A DNA stretch of 26,578 nucleotides, from positions 1 through 26,578 of the IMG/VR virus record IMGVR_UViG_3300037119_003911; one strand, written 5' to 3'. The stretch comes from a virus. Below, one piece after another: positions 1-26,578 of this stretch. Under the pieces are notes generated by a model. That model did not search any database. It worked only from the letters and a program-made list of their open reading frames with translations, and was not told the origin of the DNA. A program made the translations under genes and the position numbers. Each line of letters begins with the position of its first letter. Position 1 is the first letter of the stretch.

Positions 1-16
1 GGAGGTAGTCCTTCGT

Positions 17-34
17 ATTTTTTCACCAAAAAAT
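17..34. repeat. A6/T6 hairpin at left edge
   Basis: A run of A then six T, a CACC loop, then six A and a T forms a 7-bp pure A:T stem. It stands out in a GC-rich genome and lies in the gene-free left edge. It could be a terminator, an easily melted element or a DNA-bending tract. No G:C-rich stem supports a strong intrinsic terminator. Confidence 0.5.
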
Positions 35-35
35 C

Positions 36-133
36 GTCCGTCGATATCGGATATGGCGGATATTCGGATTTCGTGGATATGATATCGCGTCGTCGATATC
101 GGATATGGATATCGGATATTGATATCGGATATC
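36..133. repeat. GATATC/GGATAT repeat tract, left edge
   Basis: This AT-rich, gene-free tract contains six GATATC hexamers (43, 81, 95, 108, 121 and 128) embedded in a loose unit close to CGATATCGGATATGG. The unit occurs almost identically at 42-56 and 94-108. The stop codon of the kinase gene lies inside the last unit. The motif reappears at 593 and 649 and, inverted, at the right edge. Its role is unknown; protein-binding (partition, origin or packaging) functions are possible. Confidence 0.75.
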
Positions 134-569
134 ATGGTTGGGTATCTCTTCGTCCTGTCCATACGATCGTTTCGTGTCCTGACCGTGATGGTTCCCAGAG
201 GCGATACCAGGATCGCAAGTAGTCCAGCCAGATAGCGGGTCGTTCTGCGAGTACACGCTCATGGCATTCTTGCTGGGATGCCATGGCTACGACGACGGTG
301 GCTGCGTATTGGGTTCGGAAGCTTCCGCGTTGTTGACGTCGGGGCGCGGACCAGATGACCCAGCGTCGCGGGGCGGGTGTTGATAGGCCGGCGGTCCATA
401 GTGCGTGTGCTTGTTTGGTTACTTGTGGGTCTGTTGTGTATCGGTCGCCGCCTACTTGTTGGCGGAGTTCGTCGAAGTCGAGGACGAGATCGTCGGGTGT
501 GGCGTGTTCTGCGACGTATGTGGATTTGCCGCCGCATGGTGGGCCGGCGACGAGGACTACTGGTGTCAT
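132..569 (-). CDS. Small P-loop NTPase / kinase-like protein
   Basis: This 145-residue protein has an N-terminal strand followed by a Walker A motif, GPPCGGKST, at residues 9-17. An LVLDFDE segment at 28-34 resembles the acidic, Walker B-like element of small polynucleotide/adenylate-kinase-type (AAA_33) proteins. An Arg-rich stretch around 90-120 could form a lid. The family transfers phosphate from ATP to a small molecule or nucleic-acid end; the substrate here cannot be named. It is the last gene of the leftward operon, 8 bases after the small membrane protein gene, and its stop codon lies in the GATATC tract. The ATG start sits directly before the P-loop strand, as expected for the family. 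The NTP-binding assignment is firm; kinase activity is inferred. Confidence 0.75.
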   Translation of the reverse strand: MTPVVLVAGPPCGGKSTYVAEHATPDDLVLDFDELRQQVGGDRYTTDPQVTKQAHALWTAGLSTPAPRRWVIWSAPRRQQRGSFRTQYAATVVVAMASQQECHERVLAERPAIWLDYLRSWYRLWEPSRSGHETIVWTGRRDTQP

Positions 570-577
570 CGGGAATT

Positions 578-733
578 CTATTTCTCGTGGTCGATATCGG
601 TTATCGGTTCGGGGTTATCCATATCGGTGTCGTCGTTATCCTGTTCGGATATCCACTTGTGTTCGGTGTATCGTATTGCCCAGACGAACGCGGCGATGCA
701 GGTGATGGCGATGGCGGCGGCGACCCAGTTCAT
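578..733 (-). CDS. Small single-pass membrane protein
   Basis: A 51-residue ORF beginning MNWVAAAIAITCIAAFVWAI has one hydrophobic helix at residues 3-20, a short basic/aromatic turn, and a highly acidic, Asp-rich C-terminal tail. The ATG overlaps the stop of the preceding 14-codon ORF (ATGA), so translational coupling is likely. The tail is encoded by AT-rich DNA with GATATC-like motifs, unlike the GC-rich surroundings, as if the edge repeat tract had expanded into the coding region. The function is unknown; the topology is consistent with a tail exposed to one side of the membrane. Confidence 0.6.
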   Translation of the reverse strand: MNWVAAAIAITCIAAFVWAIRYTEHKWISEQDNDDTDMDNPEPITDIDHEK

Positions 734-774
734 GGTGTCGACCGAGGGCAGATGAACGGCGGTTCGATAGTCAT
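730..774 (-). pseudogene. 14-codon ORF, duplicated methylase N-terminus remnant
   Basis: The ORF reads MTIEPPFICPRSTP. Its ATG overlaps the methylase stop (ATGA) and its TGA overlaps the next ATG (ATGA), so a ribosome could pass through all three. The IEPPFI core repeats residues 6-11 of the methylase just upstream, within a 21-bp identical DNA repeat. It may be the stub left when a second gene with the same N-terminus was deleted, or simply a coupling mini-ORF. No independent function can be claimed. Confidence 0.4.
750..770. repeat. 21-bp direct repeat, copy 1
   Basis: This 21-bp stretch, beginning AGATGAACGG on the plus strand, is identical to 1382-1402. The copies bracket almost the whole methylase gene: this one lies just beyond its stop and the other near its start. 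The arrangement fits a duplication or recombination scar. Confidence 0.85.
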
Positions 775-1415
775 CCCTGGTCTCCGTCGGCTTCCATGTC
801 CCACACGGTGTAGGGCGGGGGCACGGTTCGGGCTAGTGCGACGAGTACGTCGCGGAACGCGTCCGGTGTGGCAATGGCACGCTCGAGTTTCGGTCGGCCC
901 ATGCACTCGCCGGTGTTGATCCCGCCGCCGATGACACCGGCGCCGCGGACCCGACGCCAGTCGAGCGCGATGGGGTCGACACCGACGGCGTAGAGCCATG
1001 TTCGTTTGGCGGCGCCGTGACCGTAGGCGGCCTGGAATATCTCGGTCGATATGCCGGGGTCACCGATGGCTTGTGTCCAGCCGTGGCGTGACGGCACCGG
1101 TAGCTCGTAGCGGGACCATGCGATGGAGTAGGCGGGGTGCTCGAGCACGCCGCCCCAGCGACGCACCGAGTCAAGGGCGGCGGCGAACGTCCCGCCGTCG
1201 TCGCCGATCATCTTCCCCCACCGCGTCTGATTGACCGATGCGAGCTGACACCACGTGTTGCACGGCGGGTGAGCGACGACGGGCCACGGGCCGCGGTAGC
1301 GGCGGGCGTCGCGTGTCTCGTCCCATGGGTCGACGTTGTCGAGCCCGTAGTAGGCGCCGTCACGTTCGACGTACAGGGCGGAGATGAACGGCGGTTCGAT
1401 AGCGGGGTCAGGCAT
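771..1415 (-). CDS. Cytosine-methylase-like phage protein
   Basis: The 214-residue product carries AHPPCNTWC (48-56), resembling the PC-containing catalytic motif of cytosine-5 DNA methyltransferases, and LEHPAYS (91-97), resembling their ENP motif. It also has the YYGLDNVDPWDE and GPWPVVAHPPC segments that I recall from short actinophage proteins annotated as DNA methylases. A canonical glycine-rich AdoMet-binding motif I is not evident, and the protein is much shorter than a full enzyme, so it may be a divergent or different-activity member. The chosen ATG (MPDPAIEPPF) overlaps the stop of the upstream Zn-finger gene by 8 bases; longer versions run into that gene. The likely role is DNA modification or protection from restriction, by inference. 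Confidence 0.6.
   Translation of the reverse strand: MPDPAIEPPFISALYVERDGAYYGLDNVDPWDETRDARRYRGPWPVVAHPPCNTWCQLASVNQTRWGKMIGDDGGTFAAALDSVRRWGGVLEHPAYSIAWSRYELPVPSRHGWTQAIGDPGISTEIFQAAYGHGAAKRTWLYAVGVDPIALDWRRVRGAGVIGGGINTGECMGRPKLERAIATPDAFRDVLVALARTVPPPYTVWDMEADGDQG
1382..1402. repeat. 21-bp direct repeat, copy 2
   Basis: Identical to 750-770. This copy lies inside the 5' coding end of the methylase gene and encodes the IEPPFI residues. Confidence 0.85.
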
Positions 1416-1563
1416 CGCGTCGTTCCCGTGTGGGTGGGCGTAGGTGGCGGCAGGGGATGACGGTGGTGTACCGGTGCGGCTCACCGGCGACGACCTCCCA
1501 TTCGTCGGGGCCGTCTTCCCATCCGGTGCCGCGACACCACGGGCATTCGTAGGTGACGCTCAT
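1408..1563 (-). CDS. Small CxxC zinc-finger-like protein
   Basis: A 51-residue ORF begins MSVTYECPWCRGTGWEDG. CPWCRGTGW resembles one half of a DnaJ-type CxxCxGxG zinc knuckle, and a later PCRH (Cys and His) could complete a metal site. The stop overlaps the methylase ATG by 8 bases, and the start follows the HNH gene by 30 bases, so it fits the operon. Small zinc-knuckle proteins of this kind are common in actinophage early regions and mostly uncharacterised. Metal binding is inferred; function is unknown. Confidence 0.6.
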   Translation of the reverse strand: MSVTYECPWCRGTGWEDGPDEWEVVAGEPHRYTTVIPCRHLRPPTRERRDA

Positions 1564-1572
1564 CGGCCACCC

Positions 1573-1599
1573 CGGTTACGCCGGTTACGCGGGTTACGC
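1573..1599. repeat. Three 9-bp tandem repeats with in-frame stops
   Basis: CGGTTACGC occurs at 1573-1581 and 1582-1590, and GGGTTACGC at 1591-1599. On the minus strand each unit holds TAA. Because the period is 9, all three TAA codons are in the frame of the HNH gene that ends at the first one. They lie in the 30-bp gap before the next gene. Confidence 0.8.
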
Positions 1600-2295
1600 G
1601 AAGTCGAACGTCGGCTGCTCTGGGTAGCGGATGACGAACTGTTCGGTGCACACCATCTGCAGTTGCGTCGGCTGGGATGACTCGACGACCGCCGGCACGT
1701 AGGCGCCGTCGCGGGTGCGGCGGAAGTAGTCCTCGTCAAGGGACCACGCCTCATCAATCCACTGGCGTAGCGGCTTGTTGTTCTTGCGACCGTTGCATGT
1801 TCCGCACAGTGCTTGGATATTGCGGGCGTGGTGGGCCGCGAGATCTTTGCCCCAGTCGTAAGGCGGTTCCATATGGTCAAGGTGGATATCGGGCTGACCT
1901 CGGAACTCATAGTCGGGACAACTGCACTCGGCATGGTCCTCGAGGAGAGGTCGTACCTTCTGTGGGAGGGTTGACCAGCGGCAGCGGTCCATGAGCCAGT
2001 GAACGGTGACGTACTCGGGCCCGCCTGCTTGGCGGATGCGGGTGGCGAGGGCTCGACCGCGACTCTCAACGATCCACAAGGCAGGGTCGGCGTCCTTACG
2101 GTTGACGCGTTGACGAAGCTGGCATCCACGACAGATCGGGTCGTACTGCCAAACGGTACCGTTTGGCGATCGACGTTGCCGTGAGGCGAACTCGTTGGCT
2201 TGCTTCCACTGACCGCAGCCTGTCGGTGGGTCGGCGCACTGGATGAGACCATCACGGTTTGGCGCACGTCTCGCTCTACGTTGGGTGACGGCCAT
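1594..2295 (-). CDS. HNH endonuclease
   Basis: A 233-residue protein whose C-terminal half contains an HNH nuclease core, LDHMEPPYDWGKDLAAHHARNIQALC, followed by CxxCNGRKNNK. The DH pair, the N-I-Q-x-L-C strand and the distal Cys pair match ββα-metal nucleases with a structural zinc. The N-terminal half has further Cys pairs (CADPPTGC, CRGC) that suggest a second zinc site. It cuts DNA, by family. It may be a homing/moron nuclease or serve phage recombination; context does not decide. It follows the candidate origin region and is the first gene after a 247-bp gap, so it may have its own promoter there. It is unrelated in sequence to the small HNH protein at 26115-26417. Confidence 0.8.
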   Translation of the reverse strand: MAVTQRRARRAPNRDGLIQCADPPTGCGQWKQANEFASRQRRSPNGTVWQYDPICRGCQLRQRVNRKDADPALWIVESRGRALATRIRQAGGPEYVTVHWLMDRCRWSTLPQKVRPLLEDHAECSCPDYEFRGQPDIHLDHMEPPYDWGKDLAAHHARNIQALCGTCNGRKNNKPLRQWIDEAWSLDEDYFRRTRDGAYVPAVVESSQPTQLQMVCTEQFVIRYPEQPTFDFA

Positions 2296-2542
2296 CCGGG
2301 TTCCTCGACGCCCGGGTGACTCGGGTCGGCGTCTCGAATCTGGCGCCGGCCCACCCAGGGGTGCGCGAATCCTAATGCTGTCATTTGCCGCGATCCAGTG
2401 GTGTCGGCGGGTTTGTGGTCGCGCACAGGCTTATCCCCAGACGATGCGATGGCAAGCGATGCTCTACTTCGTTCTGTTCTGTTATGCCATCCGTTTGCCA
2501 TCATGGCTCAATAGCTCTTGCTATCCGTTTGCTATCCGTTTG
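2296..2542. other. Gene-free region, candidate replication origin
   Basis: This is the only sizeable gap within the leftward early operon. It contains a DnaA-box-like 9-mer, a pyrimidine-rich AT-enriched stretch (2462-2485), and a cluster of GCTATCCGTTT/GCCATCCGTTT iterons running into the end of the replisome-organiser-like gene, plus one inverted GATGGCAAGC copy at about 2450. These are classical origin components. No test of function is possible here; the region could instead be a repressor-controlled promoter for the downstream genes. Confidence 0.5.
2431..2439 (+). promoter_or_regulatory. DnaA-box-like 9-mer
   Basis: TTATCCCCA differs at one position from the bacterial DnaA box TTATCCACA. 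It lies about 50 bp from the iteron cluster. One such match alone could be chance; the clustering gives it weight. Confidence 0.4.
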
Positions 2543-2549
2543 CTATCGC
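2486..2549. repeat. 11-bp iteron cluster
   Basis: GCYATCCGTTT units start at 2486, 2497 (degenerate), 2520, 2531 and 2542 (partial). Within each block they are spaced exactly 11 bp, one helical turn, and the two blocks are 23 bp apart. On the minus strand they read AAACGGATAGC. The last unit overlaps the stop codon of the upstream gene. Phased iterons next to a replication-protein gene are typical of initiator-binding sites. Confidence 0.7.
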
Positions 2550-2941
2550 AGACCGGCGGCGTCGACACAGTGTGGACAGTTCGGATCGGCCCGGCCACGC
2601 TTCACATGCCACCGGTTGTGGGCGCCTATCGCCCCAGCGTCCGCCCGTATTCCGCTGACGTCCTCGACCGGTGTGTTGCGTTTCAGCCAGGCCGCGATGT
2701 ACCAGCCTTCGCCGTTGCGGTCCCACAGCCCGCAGTCCACCAGTAACCCGGCGTAGCGCCGTGCGTGATCTATCCGCGCCCCGAACACACCCAGTTGGCG
2801 ATCCGCCAGCAACCCGTTGGTGCGCGTCCGCTTCGCGAACGCCAAGCCACGCACGTACAACAGTTCGGCCATCGGTGGGACCATCAGAAGCTTGTCGTCG
2901 TCGAAGTAGTTGACGTCGAGGGGGACGTACAGGCCGGCCAT
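2543..2941 (-). CDS. DnaD/replisome-organiser-like winged-helix protein
   Basis: A 132-residue protein opens MAGLYVPLDVNYFDDDKLLM and continues with an AELLYVRGLAFAKRTRTNGLL segment. This pattern, familiar from phage replisome organisers and DnaD-like initiators, has an N-terminal winged helix in which the host or phage helicase loader is recruited to the origin. The C-terminal HNRWHVKRGRADPNCPHC, with its Cys/His pairs, often ends actinophage proteins of this type. It is shorter than full-length organisers, which usually carry a second domain. It starts 3 bases after the coiled-coil gene, and its stop lies inside the iteron cluster, an arrangement seen for plasmid and phage initiators next to their binding sites. 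The replication role is inferred from family resemblance plus location. Confidence 0.6.
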   Translation of the reverse strand: MAGLYVPLDVNYFDDDKLLMVPPMAELLYVRGLAFAKRTRTNGLLADRQLGVFGARIDHARRYAGLLVDCGLWDRNGEGWYIAAWLKRNTPVEDVSGIRADAGAIGAHNRWHVKRGRADPNCPHCVDAAGLR

Positions 2942-2944
2942 CGG

Positions 2945-3124
2945 TCACGGCCGGCCGTTCGACGGATGCCGACGCTTGGACTCGGCGAGCTCGTCCTCGA
3001 GATCCCGAATCGTGGCGTCCCGCTCGGCGAGCTCAGCCAGCAGGGCGTGCTTCTCCTCACGCAGATAGTCGACCTCGTCCTGCAGCTCGGCACGACGCGC
3101 AGCCCAGAACGCGTTGTCGGTCAT
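2945..3124 (-). CDS. Small coiled-coil protein
   Basis: The 59-residue product is almost entirely a predicted heptad helix: MTDNAFWAARRAELQDEVDY, then repeated Leu and Glu/Arg through LEDELAESKRR. The ATG overlaps the stop of the zinc-ribbon gene (ATGA). It probably dimerises; function is unknown. Its place between a zinc-ribbon protein and the replication-like protein suggests an accessory role in phage DNA metabolism. A slightly longer in-frame start is less likely because it loses the overlap pattern used throughout the operon. Confidence 0.6.
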   Translation of the reverse strand: MTDNAFWAARRAELQDEVDYLREEKHALLAELAERDATIRDLEDELAESKRRHPSNGRP

Positions 3125-3315
3125 CGCTGCTCCTCCTGCCACTCGAACAGCGTCGCTTCGACGGGCGGCTCATAGCCGTCTGTGGGGCCCTGTGAGCGTC
3201 GTGCAGGGTCGCGGTGCAGGTTGCACCACACCCGCCCATCGACGTCACGCCAGCGGGCCCACACCGGACAGGCGTCGCAGAGCACACGTTCGTTCCACGC
3301 CACCTCAACCATCAC
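3121..3315 (-). CDS. Small zinc-ribbon-like protein
   Basis: A 64-residue protein has CDACPVWARWRDVDGRVWCNLH: a Cys-x2-Cys pair, then after a short strand a Cys-x2-His pair. This is a compact zinc-ribbon arrangement with a basic/aromatic middle. It starts at a GTG overlapping the RecT-like stop (GTGA); an ATG one codon later is an alternative. Its position directly after the annealing-protein gene suggests co-translation and perhaps a DNA-binding helper role. The function is not known. Confidence 0.6.
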   Translation of the reverse strand: MMVEVAWNERVLCDACPVWARWRDVDGRVWCNLHRDPARRSQGPTDGYEPPVEATLFEWQEEQR

Positions 3316-4049
3316 CGGTCCTCCTCGAGGTCGAGCTGGTCACCGCGGGCATCCGCGATCCACTCGGCGTCCATCGCATCCTCAGCGTCGAGCAGGGTCG
3401 CCTCAACCTGGCGGGCAGGCGTGTCATCGTCCACGTTGTCGTCCAGGATCTCGCCGGTCGTGGCGTCGATACCGGCCGGCACATACGAATCGTCGACATC
3501 GATCGCGTCATAGACACCGACGTGACCGACCTCGTCCGGTGTGTACGCCTCGCCGAGGATCAAGTCGTCAGCGAATAGGGTGCGCCCGAGCTCGGTCACC
3601 GCCCGCGCCGTCAACATCTGCCGCGGGTACCGCTTCCAGTTCTGCTTATCGGCGAGCCCGGCCCGCTTCGCATCCGCCATCGTCCACGTCACCTCGAGAT
3701 GGGTGCCGTTCGGGCGACGGCCGTACACGACGACACGCTCGTCGGAGCGTTCCCGAAACTGGATCAGCCCGGCCCGCAGCATGAGACCGAGCACGAACCG
3801 GGCCGCGAACGTCGGTGTGCCATCGATCATGTAGATGTTGACCAACGCGATCGAGGGTGACAGCCCCAACTCCTCGCCGTGTAGGACCGTCGCGAAGATG
3901 TCGTCGGGGCGCCCCCAGTACCGTTTCGGGATCGCCTCGGACCGGGCCAGGGCACGGGCCATATCCATCCGGTCCTTGTTCCGATGCCATGCCGGGGACC
4001 GGTCCTCGACGACCGCCGGTGTCGCCGACGTCGGCTCGATGTCAGTCAT
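3312..4049 (-). CDS. RecT-like single-strand annealing protein
   Basis: The 245-residue product follows the RecT-family layout recognised in actinophages. It has an N-terminal helical segment, then GEELGLSPSIALVNIYMIDGTPTF (59-82), a strand-rich centre, and WTMADAKRAGLADKQNWKRYPRQM (122-145) leading into the ARAVTELGRTLFADDLILG helix (148-166). The C-terminus beyond 180 is long, acidic and probably disordered. Such proteins anneal complementary single strands during phage recombination and replication, often with an exonuclease partner. No exonuclease of the classical RecE/YqaJ type is seen, but a VRR-NUC nuclease lies two genes upstream. The start overlaps the winged-helix gene (ATGA). Confidence 0.75.
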   Translation of the reverse strand: MTDIEPTSATPAVVEDRSPAWHRNKDRMDMARALARSEAIPKRYWGRPDDIFATVLHGEELGLSPSIALVNIYMIDGTPTFAARFVLGLMLRAGLIQFRERSDERVVVYGRRPNGTHLEVTWTMADAKRAGLADKQNWKRYPRQMLTARAVTELGRTLFADDLILGEAYTPDEVGHVGVYDAIDVDDSYVPAGIDATTGEILDDNVDDDTPARQVEATLLDAEDAMDAEWIADARGDQLDLEEDR

Positions 4050-4363
4050 GACGTCACCTCCGAAATCTGCCAGACGATCGCTTTGGCGCCGGATGGGGCG
4101 GCCCGGCGTCGGCCGCTGTCACGGATCAACCCGAGCGCCATCAGCTCACCGCGGCGTTTCCCGGCCGAGGTCTGTTGGCGGCCCATCAGGTCGGCGAGCT
4201 CGAAGTCGGTCAGCCCGTCAGGGTGGCGGCGATGCCACTCGAGGGCGCGGGCCCGATCGGTGAGACGCCCCGACGGTGACATCAGGGCGGCGGCCCGGCT
4301 GGTGTCAGGGTCGGCGTCGCGGACGTTCGGCGGGAACAACGACAGTTGAGGGGTGGCGCTCAC
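4046..4363 (-). CDS. Winged-helix protein with QLSLF motif
   Basis: The 105-residue protein has two parts. Near the N-terminus, residues 6-10 are QLSLF, an exact match to the bacterial sliding-clamp-binding consensus QL(S/D)LF. Residues about 35-95, including LTDFELADLMGRQQTSAGKR and ELMALGLIRDSGRRR, form a MarR/DnaD-like winged helix. The GTG start overlaps the stop of the upstream CxxC gene (GTGA). Tethering a DNA-binding domain to the host clamp would suit a replication or recombination factor, in line with the RecT-like neighbour. The winged helix is well supported; clamp binding is inference from the motif alone. It could also be a transcription regulator. Confidence 0.65.
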   Translation of the reverse strand: MSATPQLSLFPPNVRDADPDTSRAAALMSPSGRLTDRARALEWHRRHPDGLTDFELADLMGRQQTSAGKRRGELMALGLIRDSGRRRAAPSGAKAIVWQISEVTS

Positions 4364-4536
4364 GACGACGTCTCCCGGTGGGCTTGGCGGGTGGCGGTGC
4401 GCCGTGAGATGTAGTCGGCGTAGATCAACCGGTCCGCCTCGCAGACCAGCGGGAAGAACGGGGCGTCGACGTTGATGACGAGCCGGGCCGGCCGGTCACA
4501 CGTACACGTCGGACACGAGTAGTGGACGCGGGTCAT
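4360..4536 (-). CDS. Small Cys-rich protein
   Basis: A 58-residue ORF begins MTRVHYSCPTCTCDRPARLV. The CPTCTC cluster and a later VCEADR Cys could bind zinc; the C-terminal part is basic (SRRTATRQAHR). The start overlaps the stop of the nuclease gene (ATGA), and its own stop overlaps the next start. It is unrecognised; the likeliest class is a zinc-binding nucleic-acid accessory protein. Confidence 0.6.
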   Translation of the reverse strand: MTRVHYSCPTCTCDRPARLVINVDAPFFPLVCEADRLIYADYISRRTATRQAHRETSS

Positions 4537-5006
4537 GGCATGGCCCGGTTGAGGATGTCGTCCAACATTGCGCCGGACGGGGACGGGCGGCCGGCGGGGA
4601 CGTCGGCGAGCATGGCGAGGAACTGGGTCAACCCGGCCCGACCGCGGACGACGCACCATTCGGCGCCGGCCTGGATCAGCCATGCCGCCCACGACTCCTG
4701 TGCCGCGGCGAGTTTGTTCTTGTTCGCTTTCAACTCGACGAACACGACACGTTTCGCGACCGGGTGGACGGCGACCAGGTCGGGGAAGCCTTTCCCGTCG
4801 CCGGACACTGCGGTCCGCCAGCCGTGCATCGTGCGGCCGGGCCGGAAGTGAGCGAGACGCCACCCGAGGAACGCGGCCGCCGTGATGATGGCCGCCAACA
4901 TCTCCGCTTCCGATGGCTCCGGGGCCGTCCCTGCCCCCGTCGCGATGGAGGCGACGGGGGCAGGGCGGACGGCGGCCGAGCGGGCGACGCGGGGCCGGGA
5001 CGGCAT
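4533..5006 (-). CDS. VRR-NUC (PD-(D/E)xK) nuclease
   Basis: The 157-residue protein has the compact VRR-NUC core: a helix with Glu (SEAEMLAAI, about 32-40), a GKGFPDLVAV strand with the metal-binding Asp at 76, and VVFVELKANKNKL with Glu91 and Lys93 forming the ExK element, followed by a helix with Gln103. VRR-NUC enzymes cut branched or flapped DNA and act in replication and recombination intermediates. The first 30 residues are low-complexity and probably disordered. The ATG shares one base with the preceding stop (TGATG). With the RecT-like protein it may form a recombination module, by inference. Confidence 0.8.
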   Translation of the reverse strand: MPSRPRVARSAAVRPAPVASIATGAGTAPEPSEAEMLAAIITAAAFLGWRLAHFRPGRTMHGWRTAVSGDGKGFPDLVAVHPVAKRVVFVELKANKNKLAAAQESWAAWLIQAGAEWCVVRGRAGLTQFLAMLADVPAGRPSPSGAMLDDILNRAMP

Positions 5007-5158
5007 CAGTCTGCCTCCAGCCGGGCCATCGCCCGGAGCATTTGTGCCCGGTCGCGTTCCTCGGCGGCCTTGCGGTCGTACTCGACGATGATGCTGCGAC
5101 ACTCGAGCGCGACATAGACGATGAGGGCGGCGGCCAGGACACCGGCGATCAACGCCAC
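5006..5158 (-). CDS. 50-residue single-pass membrane protein
   Basis: The ORF reads VALIAGVLAAALIVYVALEC and then a charged helix, RSIIVEYDRKAAEERDRAQM. This is an N-terminal transmembrane helix with a cytoplasmic or periplasmic coiled tail, the topology of an i-spanin-like or anchor protein. It starts at a GTG and overlaps the lipoprotein gene by 10 bases. The pairing with a lipoprotein is suggestive of a functional unit at the membrane, but it lies outside the lysis cassette. The function is unknown. Confidence 0.55.
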   Translation of the reverse strand: MALIAGVLAAALIVYVALECRSIIVEYDRKAAEERDRAQMLRAMARLEAD

Positions 5159-5580
5159 GGCTTCATCCCGAGCTTGCGGTAGGCGACCGCCGCACAGCGG
5201 ACGTTGATCTCGGCGTCGGTGACGTTGCCGAGCGTGAGCCCGCACCAGTCGTTCCACGTCGCGGCGAGCCGGCCCTTCAGGTTCAGGCCGAGCAGTCCGC
5301 CGCCGGCGTCGTCCCGATCGATGACGAACGACCGGTGATTGCATCCCGACTCCCGGTAGGCGATCTTCTTGAACGTGGCGACGGGGAGGCCGTATTGCTC
5401 GAACAGCGGGGTGTAGGACGAGCAGTCCCCCGGGGAGGGCGAATCGCCGGGGGACTGCTCGAGGGCGGCGAGCGCGGCGGCCGGGTCGACGGCGTGCCAG
5501 TCGAGCCAGCGGTCCCGCTCCTCGGGGGTGCAGCCGGTGACGGCGAGAACCGCGACGAGGGCGGCGGCAATGCGTCTCAC
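5149..5580 (-). CDS. Lipoprotein with lysozyme-like domain
   Basis: The 143-residue precursor has a basic start (MRR), a hydrophobic core and a lipobox VTGC ending at Cys17, so it should be lipidated and surface-anchored. A Pro/Ser linker follows. Residues 70-143 contain YRESGCNHRSF, with Glu77 at the place of the catalytic acid of soluble-lytic-transglycosylase-like folds, then GGGLLGLNLKG and a helical end with several Cys. The family cleaves peptidoglycan. Four Cys in the domain could form disulfides. It starts at a GTG overlapping the excisionase stop (GTGA). Its location in the immunity/early operon, away from the holin-endolysin block, suggests a role during infection or lysogeny such as surface modification or exclusion; that is inference. 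Confidence 0.65.
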   Translation of the reverse strand: MRRIAAALVAVLAVTGCTPEERDRWLDWHAVDPAAALAALEQSPGDSPSPGDCSSYTPLFEQYGLPVATFKKIAYRESGCNHRSFVIDRDDAGGGLLGLNLKGRLAATWNDWCGLTLGNVTDAEINVRCAAVAYRKLGMKPWR

Positions 5581-5765
5581 GACGCGGTGCTGTCGGAGCG
5601 GGCGTCGATGAACGCCTGGAGCTCGTCGGCGCGGATGCGGATCGCCTTCTTGTCCCCGACCCGGACGGCGTTGAGGTCGCCGCGGCGGATCATCCGCTCG
5701 ACGGTCTTCGGGTGCAGTCCGAGGTGGCTGGCGGTCTCGGTGATCGAGTACAGCTCGACGGGCAT
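5577..5765 (-). CDS. xis: Excisionase / MerR-like helix-turn-helix protein
   Basis: A 62-residue protein, YSITETASHLGLHPKTVERM then RRGDLNAVRVGDKKAIRIRADELQAFI, is a textbook HTH_17 excisionase-type winged helix of the DNA-binding/Cox class. The ATG is preceded by a good ribosome-binding site, AAGGGAGG. It is the first gene leftward from the control region and diverges from the repressor. Such proteins bend DNA at attP and direct the integrase to excision, and some repress the lysogenic promoter. Either activity fits its place. Confidence 0.75.
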   Translation of the reverse strand: MPVELYSITETASHLGLHPKTVERMIRRGDLNAVRVGDKKAIRIRADELQAFIDARSDSTAS

Positions 5766-5927
5766 GGCGGTGCCCCTCCCTTGTCGGATGAGGGGTTCCA
5801 CCCCAGGGAATCTCCGGGCGGAAGATTCCTGTGCCTCCCCGACGAATTCCTGTCCTACCCTACGACTCCTGTGGACGGCAAGGGGTCGAGATCCCCAGGT
5901 ATCTGTGGACACGTCCCCCTACATGGT

Positions 5928-5957
5928 CTACGGTTCCCTACGGTTCCCTACGATGCC
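5928..5957 (+). repeat. Three 10-bp phased CTACGG units
   Basis: CTACGGTTCC, CTACGGTTCC and CTACGATGCC lie head to tail at 5928, 5938 and 5948. A second 10-bp-phased array of related GGGTA units occurs beside attP at 7521-7550. Confidence 0.75.
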
Positions 5958-5999
5958 GGGCGGCTCCTGTGGACAGTCGGAACGAATTTCTTTCAGGGT

Positions 6000-6005
6000 T
6001 ACCTT
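6000..6005 (+). promoter_or_regulatory. Possible -10 element of leaderless repressor mRNA
   Basis: TACCTT fits the TANNNT form and ends eight bases before the GTG at 6014, and no ribosome-binding site is visible. Transcription would begin close to the start codon, giving a leaderless message. No clear -35 was found. Confidence 0.3.
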
Positions 6006-6013
6006 GCAGCGAT

Positions 6014-6358
6014 GTGCCCAAGCGCGCCACCCCCCTGGCGATCGCGCTGCAACGGGCGATGGACGCCCGCGGACTCACCGTCACCGACCTGGCCCGGGCC
6101 ATCGGTGTCGACCCCGAAACGTTCCGGGCCATCGCCGACGGACGCACCGCCCGCCCCGGCAAAGCGATCCGCGACGCCCTCGACGCCTACCTGGCGCCGC
6201 TCGCCGCCGGCACCACTCTGCGGATCGCCCGGGAGGGCGGCGACTACCCGAGCGACGGGTTGCGGCAGTTGCTGCAACTGGCGCAGCAACTGCCCCCCGA
6301 CGCCCTCACCCAGCTCGTCGCGTTCCTCCGGGCGGTCGAGCCGCTAGACGGCCCGTAG
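6014..6358 (+). CDS. XRE-family repressor
   Basis: A 114-residue protein has a Cro/CI-type helix-turn-helix at residues about 8-60: ALQRAMDARGLTVTDLARAI, then GVDPETFRAIADGRTARPGK. The C-terminal half is a Leu-rich amphipathic helix, LRQLLQLAQQLPPDALTQLV, suitable for dimerisation. The plus-strand position opposite xis and beside the integrase makes it the best candidate for the immunity repressor. The GTG start was chosen because upstream in-frame codons translate the operator repeats into nonsense. It lacks a ribosome-binding site. Its last 15 bases overlap the convergent integrase gene, so the two messages are complementary at their ends. Confidence 0.7.
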   Translation: MPKRATPLAIALQRAMDARGLTVTDLARAIGVDPETFRAIADGRTARPGKAIRDALDAYLAPLAAGTTLRIAREGGDYPSDGLRQLLQLAQQLPPDALTQLVAFLRAVEPLDGP

Positions 6359-7327
6359 CCGGCGGCGGGCCCCCACCGCGGTGGGGTCGTTGGCCCGGAA
6401 CGCCTCATGAGTGAGCTTGTCGGCGTCGGACTTGGTGTAGCGCGGAATCATCAGCTTCGACGTCGACGGCGCCCACCCGGCTTGGCGGGCGATCTCGGTC
6501 TCGCCGACGCCGCGGCGTTTGGCGTCGATCGTGAACGCCCGCCGGAACTGGTGCGCCGTGACATGGATGCCGAGCTTGGCGCAGCGCCGCTCCAACATCG
6601 ACGCGATGGCATCAGGTCGTAGCCGGCCAGTGGTCGTGCCCTCATGCCCGCCGAGCGTCGACGCGAACAGGGCCGTCGCGGTGTCGCCGATGCGGTCCCG
6701 GCGACGCAGGTACCGGTCGAGCCATTCGCGGGTTTCCTCGAGCAGGGTGACGGTGCGCCACTTGCCGTTCTTCCCGAAGATCTCGACGCAGCCCTCTGAC
6801 GCGTCGTAGCGGTCGGCGTCGGCCCGGGCGACCTCGGACATGCGACAGCCGGACCAGTACATCAGCGAGCAGATCGCCGCGTTGCGACAGTCGAGCACCT
6901 TGGTCCGGTCGAACGACGCCATCAGCCGGCGGTAGTCCGCCGCGGAGATGTGCCGGACCCGGTCCGGGTCGGGGTCGGAGATGCCGGGGGCGTCGATGTC
7001 GTTCATCGGGCCCCGCCCGGACTGGTCGACGAGCTGCCCGCGCCGCTTCACGGGTGGGAGCTCGCCTTCGCGGGCCAACCACGTGTACAGCCACACGAGC
7101 ATCTGCCAGTCCTTGTGCACGGTCGACCCGGCGACGACCTGGGAGCGTTCGCGCAGGTAGTCCGAGCAGTCGTCACCGGTGGCGTCGCACAGGTCGACAC
7201 CGCGGGCGGCGAGCCAGGCACACCACCGGTTCAACTGCGACACGGCGTTGGCGATGTAGGCGTCGGACCAGCGGCGTTTGCGGCGCAGGAACGAGGCGAC
7301 GAGCGGATCGGTGGGCTTGGCAGCCAT
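6344..7327 (-). CDS. int: Tyrosine integrase
   Basis: The 327-residue recombinase has an N-terminal SAM-like core-binding domain (about 5-95) and a catalytic domain from about 125. The catalytic set is visible: Arg162 in SGCRMSE, Lys186/189 in GKNGKW, His259-x2-Arg262 in AHQFRRAF, Trp285 in AGWAPS (in the His/Trp position), and the nucleophile Tyr297 in PRYTKS. It catalyses site-specific integration and excision. The ATG at 7327 has a clear GAAAGGA site; an upstream TTG is less likely. The attP tRNA core lies about 110 bp upstream of the start, the usual int-attP arrangement. The C-terminus overlaps the repressor gene in the opposite orientation. Confidence 0.93.
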   Translation of the reverse strand: MAAKPTDPLVASFLRRKRRWSDAYIANAVSQLNRWCAWLAARGVDLCDATGDDCSDYLRERSQVVAGSTVHKDWQMLVWLYTWLAREGELPPVKRRGQLVDQSGRGPMNDIDAPGISDPDPDRVRHISAADYRRLMASFDRTKVLDCRNAAICSLMYWSGCRMSEVARADADRYDASEGCVEIFGKNGKWRTVTLLEETREWLDRYLRRRDRIGDTATALFASTLGGHEGTTTGRLRPDAIASMLERRCAKLGIHVTAHQFRRAFTIDAKRRGVGETEIARQAGWAPSTSKLMIPRYTKSDADKLTHEAFRANDPTAVGARRRLRAV

Positions 7328-7390
7328 CAGGCGTCCTTTCGGAGGTTTCGGTCCCAAGGTGATGGCCGAAGTTCGAACCGTCGTCTCCCG

Positions 7391-7433
7391 AACCCCCCGG
7401 TAGAGGGCAAATTGTGCCGTCTACCAGGGGGTT
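7391..7433. repeat. Long hairpin between int and attP
   Basis: Arms 7391-7404 and 7420-7433 (AACCCCCCGGTAGA / TCTACCAGGGGGTT) pair over 14 positions with one mismatch, and an inner GGCA/TGCC stem extends the structure. It abuts the tRNA 3' end in attP. No T-run follows on either strand, so it is not an ordinary terminator. It could be a recombination-protein site, or a structure blocking read-through between int and the attP side. Confidence 0.7.
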
Positions 7434-7434
7434 T

Positions 7435-7477
7435 GAGCGGACGACGGGATTCGAACCCGCGACCCTCACCTTGGCAA
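7435..7477 (-). other. attP: attP core: 3' half of tRNA-Gly(GCC)
   Basis: On the minus strand the segment begins with the anticodon loop TTGCCAA (anticodon GCC), then GGTGA of the anticodon stem, a GGGTC variable region, the T arm GCGGG-TTCGAAT-CCCGT, and the acceptor strand CGTCCGC with discriminator T. The D arm and 5' acceptor strand are absent; the flanking DNA is unrelated. A 3' tRNA half next to an integrase gene is the classic phage attachment core that rebuilds the host tRNA after integration. The host site is therefore predicted to be a tRNA-Gly(GCC) gene. Confidence 0.88.
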
Positions 7478-7479
7478 CA

Positions 7480-7499
7480 TCCCTACGGGACCGTAGGGA
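7480..7499. repeat. Perfect inverted repeat beside attP
   Basis: TCCCTACGG-GA-CCGTAGGGA has 9-bp arms and begins three bases from the tRNA core. Its arms contain the same CTACGG motif that is repeated upstream of the repressor, suggesting a common DNA-binding protein. Confidence 0.75.
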
Positions 7500-7520
7500 A
7501 TCAATAGGACGTTACATGGA

Positions 7521-7550
7521 CTTATGGGTACGCACGGGTATCTACGGGTA
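7521..7550 (+). repeat. Three 10-bp phased GGGTA units
   Basis: GGGTA occurs at 7526, 7536 and 7546, preceded by TTAT, GCAC and CTAC, so a unit close to YTACGGGTA repeats every 10 bp. It lies between attP and the plus-strand membrane-protein gene. Candidate integrase arm-type or excisionase sites. Confidence 0.65.
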
Positions 7551-7570
7551 CGAGTTAGGTGATGGCCGAA

Positions 7571-7576
7571 TACACT
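7571..7576 (+). promoter_or_regulatory. Possible -10 element, leaderless gene
   Basis: TACACT (TANNNT class) ends eight bases before the ATG at 7585, with no ribosome-binding site between. The spacing is the same as for the TACCTT before the repressor start, suggesting both lysogeny-side genes are transcribed without leaders. Confidence 0.35.
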
Positions 7577-7584
7577 GGCCCGCC

Positions 7585-7950
7585 ATGAACCAACCACTTC
7601 CCCCACCCGGCCAGCCGGCCCTCCCACCGCTGGCGCCGCGGTGGAGCCCGAAGAAGAGCGGACTCCTCGCGGTGGGCATCTTCGGCGGGATCGTCGCGCT
7701 GGGTGTCGCCAACCTCGGACAGGACCACGACACCAACCACGGCGGCGGGGGCGGCACCCCGACCGAGAATGCGCGGCTCATCGTCGAGGGATGGCCCTTC
7801 GACTTCACCGACTGTCGGTTGCTGACCGTCGGCCACGCGGTGTTCGTGTCCGAGACGATCAAGAACGTCGAGGCGAAGGGTCACGACAAGAGGACCTCAG
7901 AGATCGCCGCCGAAGGGCTGTGGTCGAAGATCAGCGCTGGCTGCCGCTAG
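7585..7950 (+). CDS. Membrane-anchored protein, putative lysogenic-conversion gene
   Basis: The 121-residue product has a Pro-rich N-terminal segment (MNQPLPPPGQPALPPLAP), a WSPKK positive patch, a transmembrane helix at about 25-45, a Gly/Thr linker, and a small outer domain with two Cys (77 and 120) that could form a disulfide. This Pro-rich/TM/outer-domain layout is common in actinobacterial envelope proteins. It is one of only two plus-strand genes. After integration at attP it would lie at the prophage end opposite int, where morons and superinfection-exclusion genes are typically found. The stop overlaps the convergent minus-strand stop in a CTAG palindrome. The exclusion role is inference; the topology is well supported. 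Confidence 0.6.
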   Translation: MNQPLPPPGQPALPPLAPRWSPKKSGLLAVGIFGGIVALGVANLGQDHDTNHGGGGGTPTENARLIVEGWPFDFTDCRLLTVGHAVFVSETIKNVEAKGHDKRTSEIAAEGLWSKISAGCR

Positions 7951-8111
7951 GGGGTGAGCCGGCCGGCGGCGTCGGCGCGTAGTTGGGTGATGGCGGTCAC
8001 GATCGGATGGTCGTCGCCGGGGTCGGCGTGTTCCTCGATCCAGATCAGGGACCGCATCGACAGGCGGTGATCCTCCCGCCACTCGAGCACGACGAGCGGG
8101 TGGAGTTCCAC
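7947..8111 (-). CDS. Small hypothetical protein after the holin
   Basis: A 54-residue ORF starts at GTG (VELHPLVVLEWREDHRLSMR) and ends with ADAAGRLTP. It is charged, soluble and probably helical. It lies 4 bases after the holin stop and ends on the convergent plus-strand gene. It is the last gene of the late operon. Its function is unknown, and the small size leaves some doubt that it is translated. Confidence 0.45.
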   Translation of the reverse strand: MELHPLVVLEWREDHRLSMRSLIWIEEHADPGDDHPIVTAITQLRADAAGRLTP

Positions 8112-23407: not shown

Positions 23408-24627
23408 AGGGTGGCTCCTTGGGGGACGTTGCCGGTGACGATGAGACGTTCGATCCCGGCGACCTGGGCGGCGTCGAGGACACCGATGCGGGTCAGGATC
23501 TCCCACGTCTGTGCCCGCTCATACGGGCCGGGTTGGACGTAGGCGTCCCGGTTCACTTCGACGGTGGTTCCCCGCGGGAGGAGCCGGCCGGACAGGTCGG
23601 CCATCAAATGGTCGGCCATCGGTCGGAGCCCGGCCCGCCAGTGGTAGTCGAACAGGGCCGCGGTGTTGGCGTAGGTCATCGAGTCGCCGCCGGACGGCAA
23701 GCCGACGAGGAACGGTGGCAGGCCGAGCAGGACGGCGATGCGGGCCTCGTTCCAGGCGGAGAGTTCGACCATCGCCATGTCGGCCGGGTTGAACTGCAAC
23801 GTCTTGAAGTCGATCCCGCCGGACAGGACGGCCGGGAGGCCGAGGGTGGACATGCGGGCGTTCACCCATTGCGATTGCAGCTCGTACGCCTGTTGGGCGG
23901 TGAGGTCGTCGGGGTGGATCAGGACGGCGTTCGGGATGCCACCGGCGGCGGCGAACTGGGAGGCGTAGCGGGCCAGGCTGGCGGCGGCGACGAGTCGGGG
24001 GCCGGCGACCTCGAGCGGGCCGTGGCCGTGGGCGTCACCGGTGCGGGACTGGTACCGGATGTGGATCATGTCGTCGCCGACATCACCGGAGCCGATCGTG
24101 TACCGCCGGTAGGGGCCGTCCATCTCGACGTTGACCTGCCACGGCTCGACGACATGGAACCGGGCCGGATACCCCGTCGAATATCTGGCCGTCACCAGGA
24201 CGAACGTTTCGCCGGCCGACTGGTAGTCCCACAGAAGCTGCTTCGCGAACTCGTTCCACGACCCGTACATGTCCGGGTCCGGGTTCGTGATCCAATCCGC
24301 CGACAAGGTGGGTGCGGCGTCGACCAGGTACGGCGGCATCGACGCAAAGATGGACGAGTTCTTGTCGAGACACGCCCACGCCGTGTCGGTCAACGATTGG
24401 GCGCGGCCCCACCAGTTCGGGGTCGGCCACTCGGCCGGCCACCCGGACCAGGCGACCGGGCGGGGCGGGCCGGCACCGAATGGGCGGCCTGCCGGGGCGT
24501 CGATGAACTCGATCCCGTTCGGGTCGCCCGGTGTGGCGGTGGGGGGGCCGACGGTGGCCGGCGGGTTGGCGGCGGGGTCGTTGCCGTTCGGGATCAACTG
24601 GCGTTCTTCGATCCCGTGTTTCGCCAT
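23404..24627 (-). CDS. Portal protein (HK97 type)
   Basis: The 407-residue protein has a disordered Pro/Gly-rich N-terminus and then the phage_portal signature: WACLDKNSSIFASMPPYLVD, FVLVTARYSTGYPARFHVVE, HIRYQSRTGDAHGHGPLEVA, and the stem/wing segment LLGLPPFLVGLPSGGDSMTY. The C-terminal helices (LRPMADHLMADLSGRLLPRG) form the crown. Twelve copies form the vertex channel for packaging and the neck. It follows the terminase by 12 bases. Confidence 0.9.
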   Translation of the reverse strand: MAKHGIEERQLIPNGNDPAANPPATVGPPTATPGDPNGIEFIDAPAGRPFGAGPPRPVAWSGWPAEWPTPNWWGRAQSLTDTAWACLDKNSSIFASMPPYLVDAAPTLSADWITNPDPDMYGSWNEFAKQLLWDYQSAGETFVLVTARYSTGYPARFHVVEPWQVNVEMDGPYRRYTIGSGDVGDDMIHIRYQSRTGDAHGHGPLEVAGPRLVAAASLARYASQFAAAGGIPNAVLIHPDDLTAQQAYELQSQWVNARMSTLGLPAVLSGGIDFKTLQFNPADMAMVELSAWNEARIAVLLGLPPFLVGLPSGGDSMTYANTAALFDYHWRAGLRPMADHLMADLSGRLLPRGTTVEVNRDAYVQPGPYERAQTWEILTRIGVLDAAQVAGIERLIVTGNVPQGATL

Positions 24628-24639
24628 CGCTTAGCAATC

Positions 24640-26118
24640 CTAGGACACGGTGTCAATTGTCGACGGGGCATGGACAGTCGGCAGCTTCGCCGGTTTCGAA
24701 TCGACGAGCCACACCGCCAGCGACGCCGCCACGATCGGGGTCACATCACCGGCGTGATCACGGTCGAACACCCACCGGTCCCCCCGCTTACGTCTGGCGA
24801 GGACCGCTACGGCGTTCAGGAACCGGTCATCGCCCATGTGACCGACCCGGCGGGCAGTGACGGCATCGACGAACCAGCCGGCAGCGTCGGGGATGTCACG
24901 GGAGTCGATCTTGGCGATCCGGGCACCCGCCCGTTTCAACATCGGGGCCAAAGGGGCCGCCGGCCCATACGGGTCGATCACAACCCGGGCACTATGCGCG
25001 GCGGCAACCCCCGTCACGAACTCGACGACCCAATCGGTGCCCGGCCGTTGATCCACCAGTTCAACCGCGATGCGGTCACCCATCGCCCGGGCCGCGACCA
25101 CCGACGTCGAGCCGTGATCGGCAGTGCATTCCACCGCCAGGACCACACCCGGGCCCGCAGTGAGGTCGACACGCGGTAGCCGGTCCCACACGTCGGGAGA
25201 GATCACCTGCCGCGACGCCGACACCACCGTCCGGCACAGATACTCGCGGGCGAAGGCGTCGGTCCCAAGCGTCTCCGCCTGAAGCTCGAGCAGATCCCTC
25301 GAGATCCCGTCGGGCTGCTCATACGTGGGCATCACCCGGGCCCACACCGCAGGGTCCAACGGATCGTCATCGTCGGCGCATGAATACTCCAGCCACATCC
25401 GGCGCCGGTCACCCTCCGCGACGGCCCGCCGGCCGAGCTCGCGTTGCAGGTTCAGCAGTTCCGCCGACTCGTCACCGGCGTTCGAGATGATCACCAGTTG
25501 GGCGCCGAAACTGTTCCGGGCCCCGTCACGCTGCGCCATCGTCGGCGCCAACACATCCAACAGCCACGCCTCATGGGTCAACGCCTCGTCGATGATCGCC
25601 AGGTCGATCGACTTCCCACGGGCCCCGTCCTTCGACGGGGTCACGATCTCATACACCGACCCGTTGTCGAACCGGAGACATTCCGACCCGTGAGTCATCG
25701 TCGGCTTCCCACCGACGACATGGGCGGCGTACGGCGACCGCATGATCAGCGCGACGTGTTCCTTCCACTGCTCGAGCGCCGCCTGCCGGTTCTGGGCGGT
25801 GAACACGATGTGCTGCGGCCCGATCTCATGGCCGACCAGTAGCCGCAGCTCGGGCAGCGATGGCGCCATTGCCCGCAACACGACGTCACCGCCGGCCGAC
25901 GCCGTCTTCCCGGCCTGCCGACCGACGACGGTCCCAGACACCCGCGCCGCCAGCCGCCGCCCGTTCGCGCACGGCTCGAGCTCGTACATGACATCGGCCC
26001 GGTGTTGTTGCCAGACGTGAGGTTCGAACCCGAGGTTGTGCATCACGTCCGCCCACGCTTCGCCGAGCGTTGCCAGCCCGGACCGGGGCGTCCCGATCCG
26101 CGGACCGGCCGGTCTCAC
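24640..26118 (-). CDS. terL: Terminase large subunit
   Basis: The 492-residue protein has the two-domain TerL layout. The N-terminal ATPase has a P-loop-like GRQAGKT (66-72) and Walker B LAIIDEAL (173-180, Asp177-Glu178). The C-terminal RNase H-like nuclease has candidate metal residues in VVLAVECTADHGS (Glu330/Asp334), VVIDPYGPA (Asp382) and FDRDHAGD (Asp452/Asp458). The first usual Asp is Glu here. It packages DNA and cuts concatemers. The start was placed at GTG 26118 because it overlaps the HNH stop (GTGA); a longer reading would run through the HNH gene in another frame. It usually acts with a small subunit, which is not seen. Confidence 0.9.
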   Translation of the reverse strand: MRPAGPRIGTPRSGLATLGEAWADVMHNLGFEPHVWQQHRADVMYELEPCANGRRLAARVSGTVVGRQAGKTASAGGDVVLRAMAPSLPELRLLVGHEIGPQHIVFTAQNRQAALEQWKEHVALIMRSPYAAHVVGGKPTMTHGSECLRFDNGSVYEIVTPSKDGARGKSIDLAIIDEALTHEAWLLDVLAPTMAQRDGARNSFGAQLVIISNAGDESAELLNLQRELGRRAVAEGDRRRMWLEYSCADDDDPLDPAVWARVMPTYEQPDGISRDLLELQAETLGTDAFAREYLCRTVVSASRQVISPDVWDRLPRVDLTAGPGVVLAVECTADHGSTSVVAARAMGDRIAVELVDQRPGTDWVVEFVTGVAAAHSARVVIDPYGPAAPLAPMLKRAGARIAKIDSRDIPDAAGWFVDAVTARRVGHMGDDRFLNAVAVLARRKRGDRWVFDRDHAGDVTPIVAASLAVWLVDSKPAKLPTVHAPSTIDTVS

Positions 26119-26417
26119 CGTCGCCGCCTGGCCGGCTTCGGCGGACGGCCCAACAGCCGGTTGCGTTGCCGCACCACCGTCGCCGCACGCCACCCGCCCC
26201 GCCGCGTGTTGCACGACGCACACGCCGGCCGCAACACACAACACCCCGACCCTTCGACATGCCGGCCCTGGTGCTGCCAGAGGGCCGGGACATGGTCCGC
26301 TGTCGTCGCCCACCCTGAACAACGGTCGAGCTTGAGCCAACACCGCGGACGGCCCGCCAACAACTGGGCTCGGGCCCGCTGATATTCCGGCCCGTACGGA
26401 GAATTACGACGTGGCAT
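26115..26417 (-). CDS. Small HNH endonuclease beside terminase
   Basis: The 100-residue protein has the HNH core TTADHVPALWQHQGRH (Asp41-His42) and LRPACASCNTRRGG (Cys66/Cys69-Asn70), with Cys26/Cys33 (CWLKLDRC) able to complete a zinc site. HNH proteins encoded next to terminase genes in cos phages such as HK97 aid genome packaging and cleavage, by published family knowledge. It is the first gene of the leftward late operon here, with GGGAG as a weak ribosome-binding site, and its stop overlaps the terL start. A packaging role is inferred from location. Confidence 0.8.
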   Translation of the reverse strand: MPRRNSPYGPEYQRARAQLLAGRPRCWLKLDRCSGWATTADHVPALWQHQGRHVEGSGCCVLRPACASCNTRRGGWRAATVVRQRNRLLGRPPKPARRRR

Positions 26418-26578
26418 TATTCCATATCTCCCGATTTCATATCCCCGATATCACCATATTCGACCATATTCACCCCGATATCCGATATCCAAATCCCAAT
26501 ATCGCATATTCCGAAACCCCAATATCGCATATTCCGAATTCGTCGATTTCGGAGGGGGGGGCCGATTGGGACGTATCC
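26418..26578. repeat. Right-edge AT-rich repeat region
   Basis: The 161-bp gene-free edge carries GATATC motifs (about 26449, 26477 and 26484), many ATATC/CATATTC variants, and a run of eight G near the end. Reading outward, the motifs are the reverse complement of those at the left edge. The region also holds the start-proximal sequence of the HNH/terL operon, so a late promoter may lie here, but none is clear. Confidence 0.65.
26495..26538. repeat. Two 21-bp direct repeats, 23-bp period
   Basis: A 21-bp segment beginning CCCAATATCGCATATTCCG occurs identically at 26495-26515 and 26518-26538. It is built from the same ATATC-type motif as the edge tracts. Confidence 0.8.

Follow-up and report, generated by a model that had tools for sequence, protein, structure and literature searches.

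Two short palindromic repeat arrays lie at the opposite edges of a 26,578-base virus record (hereafter the window, i.e. the whole stretch of DNA analysed), and they raise the questions of whether these edges are genuine genome ends and what role the arrays might have there. Nearly every gene of the window is on the minus strand. From late to early, the genes encode an HNH endonuclease, the terminase large subunit (TerL), portal, capsid and tail proteins, an integrase (6344-7357), early proteins and an AAA_33 P-loop protein. The early genes include HTH, VRR-NUC, RecT and a replication-initiation-like gene (2543-2941, assigned by family match). The AAA_33 gene (132..569, minus strand) is the last early gene and was assigned from Pfam/PHROGs matches and comparison with Gordonia phage McGonagall. 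GC content is 42% and 47% at the two edges versus 67% overall.

GATATC is present nine times in 254 bp of both edges versus four times in the remaining 26.3 kb (only at 593, 648, 1885 and 16536), i.e. its density is ∼230 times higher at the edges than elsewhere. The six copies originally reported in 43-133 are all found (starts at 43, 81, 95, 108, 121 and 128), together with the GGATAT linking units (starts at 49, 58, 75, 101, 107, 114 and 127). This array spans 39..133 on the right chromosome arm, the early side of the putative cos, and contains 13-bp units GATATCGGATAT(C/G/T) at 43, 95, 108 and 121. The ATATC/GATATC array of the left chromosome arm, on the late side, spans 26418..26538. It includes two exact 21-bp copies of CCCAATATCGCATATTCCGAA (26495-26515 and 26518-26538) inside a 23-bp direct repeat. 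The ATATCC units expected here occur at 26439, 26478 and 26485, and both repeats are exact, but the repeats themselves hold ATATCG and CATATTCC rather than ATATCC. Dinucleotide shuffles of each edge gave p<0.0005 for 1-133 and p=0.014 for 26418-26538.

We compared the window edges with the contig ends of related phages, which were gathered by TerL, capsid and portal searches of viral contigs and oriented with terL. Among 71 contigs with a related portal, 34 start 1780-2080 bp upstream of the portal gene, just upstream of HNH-terL, where 4.7 would be expected from a uniform spread (p about 2e-21); left ends of relatives fall repeatedly some 30-260 bp upstream of HNH. The near-identical contig L002 starts 2 nt (AG) beyond the left terminus of the window, and the starts of L009 and L010, the same phage from two samples, differ by 1 nt. 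On the right side, seven other long relatives (G011, G009, G378, G380, G381, G382 and G385) end 20-33 bp past a T5-7 run, as the window does. The right ends of the long contigs G379, G383, G384, G386, G387 and G388 are not at the T-run, perhaps because these contigs are incomplete. In join-spanning contigs and a Desertimonas flava prophage, the T-run, a dyad and HNH follow one another in this order, between the early genes and HNH. One relative (G378) has an 11-nt overlap between its ends, TGGAGCCCGGA, similar in length to the 3' extensions of 10-12 nt that many Gordonia phages are reported to have (PMC5559632).

The overhang itself cannot be read from assemblies, and the ends are placed by the coincidence of contig ends. 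This coincidence speaks against the edges being arbitrary assembly breaks, and an assembly-gap artefact is unlikely because the same ends coincide across samples. It provides strong evidence for fixed, non-permuted virion ends at one site, and the window edges very probably represent cos. Joining the ends gives the single non-coding region that had been foreseen (about 292 bp, 131 + 161) between the last early gene and the first late gene, which would place the arrays on both sides of cos within this boundary.

The cut appears to be surrounded by a core signal. On the gene strand, the right end of the window reads T6-GGTGAAAAAATACGAA-GGAC-TACCTCC. The T6...A6 element (18..33, minus strand) has its T6 16 nt before GGAC (T6-N16-GGAC). 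GGAC (8..11, minus strand; GTCC on the plus strand), aligned with the right end of L067/G011, is followed to the window edge by TACCTCC (1..7), the right virion terminus region, which may be part of or beside the cohesive end, the cut being approximate. The left virion terminus is GGATACGTCCC on the gene strand (26568..26578), and a G8 run (C8 on the gene strand) lies nearby at 26554..26561. In many relatives a C-run lies about 8-30 bp inside the left end, and the G8 run is the same element. Both the A6/T6 element and the G8 run of the original prediction are thus present and correspond to conserved cos-proximal elements of relatives, i.e. the T-run and the C-run; the A6 hairpin partner of the window T-run is not conserved in relatives.

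T6-7-N16-18-GGAC is present at the matching place in G011, L047, L056 and the Desertimonas prophage, with ∼0.12 occurrences expected by chance in 203 kb for a motif that was defined after examples had been seen. The strict form (T6-N16..18-GGAC) was rejected as a universal cos motif: the window, G011, L047, L056 and L020 fit, G009 and L069 fit only loosely, and it is absent in three cultured relatives. A core signal that consists of the T-run, a short dyad and the C-run appears to be widely common to the lineage. In a separate observation, the right contig end of L034 (record G009) carries a tandem duplication of ∼33 bp that includes the T-run and AGGAC and may be an assembly artefact.

The window also carries signs of a temperate lifestyle. 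Beside the integrase gene, positions 7435-7477 match a tRNA-like sequence, which we take to be the 3' half of tRNA-Gly(GCC); ARAGORN detected no whole tRNA. This segment is likely the attP. An attachment site inside the contig, together with both edges at the early/late boundary, indicates a virion-form genome and not an excised prophage fragment. A partition site, which had been among the functions suggested for the arrays, is not favoured: no ParA or ParB was found among the window genes scanned against Pfam/PHROGs, and the integrase and attP-like tRNA 3' end make a plasmid-like partition site unnecessary. A DNA-level search of a phage collection with window 1-8000 returned the tRNA-like fragment only, and Rfam gave zero family matches within the window. 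In 296 genomes from the class to which Desertimonas belongs, a portal search found distant matches only and pointed to no particular host.

The arrays are distributed far more narrowly than the cos layout. Left-arm arrays are clear in the window/L002, L037, L067 and L004, weak in L146 and L012 (L146 has both of its GATATC copies on the left only), and absent in nearly all others. In L067 (record G011), 12 of the 13 GATATC copies of the genome lie at its two ends. A scan of the viral_contigs collection for the GATATC-array pattern gave 20 contigs; apart from L004 and L067, these seem to reflect chance or tandem repeats of an unrelated kind. L121, which is another phage and has two GATATC copies at the end of a contig, was not counted as evidence. 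The motif clusters are therefore carried by the nearest relatives, as had been anticipated, but most other relatives with the same cos layout lack them. Because they are confined to a few relatives, the arrays are accessory. The earlier suggestion of a packaging (cos/pac) site stands insofar as the ends are probably cos and the arrays flank the joined early/late region, but the arrays do not appear to be the packaging signal itself. They are rather an extra that is particular to one clade and flanks cos. Array presence was also considered as tracking the type of HNH or TerL, and this was rejected: both split (window and L004) and fused (L067 and L037) forms have arrays, and both types also occur without them. 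RecT and VRR-NUC are common to just the window and G011 (n=2). In one relative without GATATC (L047:130-420), cos is flanked by AACAAAC repeats in its right arm and by GTTTGTT in its left arm, a weak pattern (p about 0.02).

The genes next to the left array encode the terminase. The HNH endonuclease (26115..26417, minus strand, 100 aa, phrog_2323) is the first late gene and is homologous to the N-terminal domain of HNH-TerL fusions. The HK97-like TerL (24640..26118, minus strand, with an inferred start codon) matches phrog_9 (E=1.7e-44), and 947 cultured phage records match it over at least 80% of the query. The two are separate genes in the window, and in 13 relatives they form one open frame of 568-592 aa right after cos (L067:134-1900, L037:260-2035, L040:78-1781, L060:72-1799, L063:73-1779, L065:64-1788, L073:63-1769, L081:117-1847, L047:396-2132, L070, L069, L056 and L053). 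The HNH zinc/catalytic residues and the TerL Walker motifs are invariant in 12 aligned fusions, and the modelled fusion of a relative best matches HK97 TerL (6z6d). Against cultured phage records the fusions give weak matches in the TerL part only, and a literature search found no description of such fusions. HNH is thus part of the terminase module. No terminase small subunit (TerS) was recognized among the window genes scanned, save the AAA_33 protein. This protein matches phrog_4581, a family labelled terminase small subunit, and is related to the right-end HNH-AAA protein of McGonagall, which is annotated as terminase small subunit. Some relatives (L003:1-800 and L009:1-860) have an additional protein between cos and HNH, presumably carrying an endonuclease VII-like motif.

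We tentatively propose that the GATATC arrays serve as docking sites for packaging at cos, which is the likeliest single explanation although it falls short of even odds. The joined region would run from the right array through the T-run, the cos cut and the C-run to the left array. Its palindromic hexamers, which are often paired as a 13-bp dyad (GATATC-S-GATATC), could be bound by dimeric HTH-type or terminase-associated proteins, and the bound proteins might dock the HNH and TerL terminase at cos, helping it to find or cut the site. The arrays would then act, by analogy, like cosB of lambda or pacL/pacR of SPP1. The chances seem about even for the composite reading, in which the window represents the whole or almost whole virion genome of a temperate cos-type phage, the edges are cohesive ends and the arrays are docking sites. 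Several observations weigh against docking: most relatives with the same cos layout lack a GATATC cluster, array presence is independent of a split or fused terminase, and the window genes scanned gave no TerS besides the AAA_33 protein.

Known systems resemble this arrangement in part. In lambda, cosB consists of R sites plus IHF, clustered beside the cos cut on one side only. The window likewise has clustered candidate protein sites beside the cos cut, but the lambda sites are one-sided and unrelated in sequence, and no IHF or TerS was identified in the window. SPP1 has a pac site organized as pacL-pacC-pacR, uses headful packaging, and its sites are read by an identified TerS (PMC6316719). 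It shares with the window recognition regions on both sides of the cut (candidate sites in the window); by contrast, SPP1 is a pac headful phage with no known sequence relation to the window. HK97 has a 10-nt 3' overhang and a TerS site beside cos, with an A-tract recognized by shape, and one 15-bp TerS site, not arrays, is described (PMC11331095). The window is similar to HK97 in its HK97-like TerL, adjacent HNH (gp74 in HK97) and fixed ends, but no TerS was recognized in the window genes scanned and the conserved T-run is on the opposite side of the cut, in the right arm.

A cultured parallel in layout is McGonagall (NC_030912, 17 kb), whose ends were determined experimentally and carry a 10-nt 3' extension, AGCCCCCGGT (PMC5255912). 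Nine of its 11 TGCATA/TATGCA copies lie within about 140 bp of its two ends, i.e. hexamer arrays are present on both sides of cos. McGonagall also has a distantly related TerL (27%), a similar gene order and an AAA_33 protein at the right end. It differs from the window in its hexamer (TGCATA, not GATATC), in a TerS (phrog_15169) beside TerL and in having no strand-composition switch. GRU3, a relative close to McGonagall, contains no TGCATA, which is a further point against docking. Recurrence of the layout with another hexamer, and its absence in GRU3, support a real but changeable function of the arrays.

A late-promoter operator cluster is nearly as likely as docking sites. It is a doubtful but serious possibility, in which both arrays are operators for a clade-specific activator or repressor of the late promoter at cos. 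In the circular or prophage form the arrays lie upstream of the first late gene, nearly all genes are on one strand, the join is an AT-rich early/late boundary of 292 bp, and the 13-bp dyads resemble dimer operators. Also, the left arm measures 116-260 bp in array-bearing phages (L004, L067, the window and L037) but only 32-80 bp in many relatives that lack arrays. However, where only 32-80 bp separate cos from HNH, a promoter would hardly fit, so that the operon is not bound to start at cos. GATATC is also absent from the repressor/HTH divergent region (5580-6340), with no copy between 1885 and 16536; this counts against late control, and a role of the arrays as immunity-repressor operators or stoperators was rejected for this reason.

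Strand composition changes at cos. On average in the lineage, G+T minus A+C shifts from about -0.2 just before cos to +0.12..0.16 in the first 500 bp after it, fades over 2-3 kb and is slightly negative by 3 kb; it is positive in the first kilobase of 31/31 left ends. In the window (1-2000 and 24600-26578), the last early gene and the HNH gene share one direction of transcription, yet their third codon positions score -0.67 and +0.41, respectively. This skew looks mutational because it is carried mainly by third codon positions, and it suggests that one strand is selectively exposed from cos onwards, through an origin, a displaced strand or end processing. The original prediction of inverted arrays holds in the counts (GGATAT 7:0 at one edge and ATATCC 3:0 at the other), but the lineage-wide switch centred on cos accounts for at least part of this orientation.

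The same switch, along with the replication-initiation-like gene, would fit a replication origin at or beside cos, in which the arrays would be iterons for initiator binding or would form an unwinding element. We consider this improbable. The skew is also present in relatives without arrays and hence does not explain them, it does not extend along the whole arm, and the flip is absent in three cultured distant relatives. Moreover, phage replication origins are often in or near the initiator gene.

Slightly less probable still is low-complexity drift, i.e. short palindromic repeats grown by slippage in unconstrained non-coding arms. Arm length and sequence do vary between relatives, many have no arrays, and some motif copies run into coding sequence (L012 and L004). 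On the other hand, two phages that share ∼83% portal identity but differ in terminase organization have the same hexamer at both ends and hardly anywhere else in their genomes. In alignments, the ATAT columns are kept while the linkers diverge, a pattern not expected from drift, although repeats bias such alignments.

In brief, what looked like an assembly edge becomes the mapped, probably cohesive, genome termini of a lineage of uncultured phages. In dozens of metagenomic genomes, cos can be placed from contig ends alone, and the conserved cos core can be told apart from optional flanking arrays. McGonagall is a cultured phage in which the role of such arrays is directly testable. More speculatively, and with low confidence, some small cos phages might repeatedly acquire private palindromic hexamer arrays flanking cos (e.g. 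GATATC and TGCATA), which would form an exchangeable packaging or late-control code over a conserved T-run/dyad/C-run core, while in the present lineage cos would also be the turning point of strand-specific mutation, with replication or end processing starting there.
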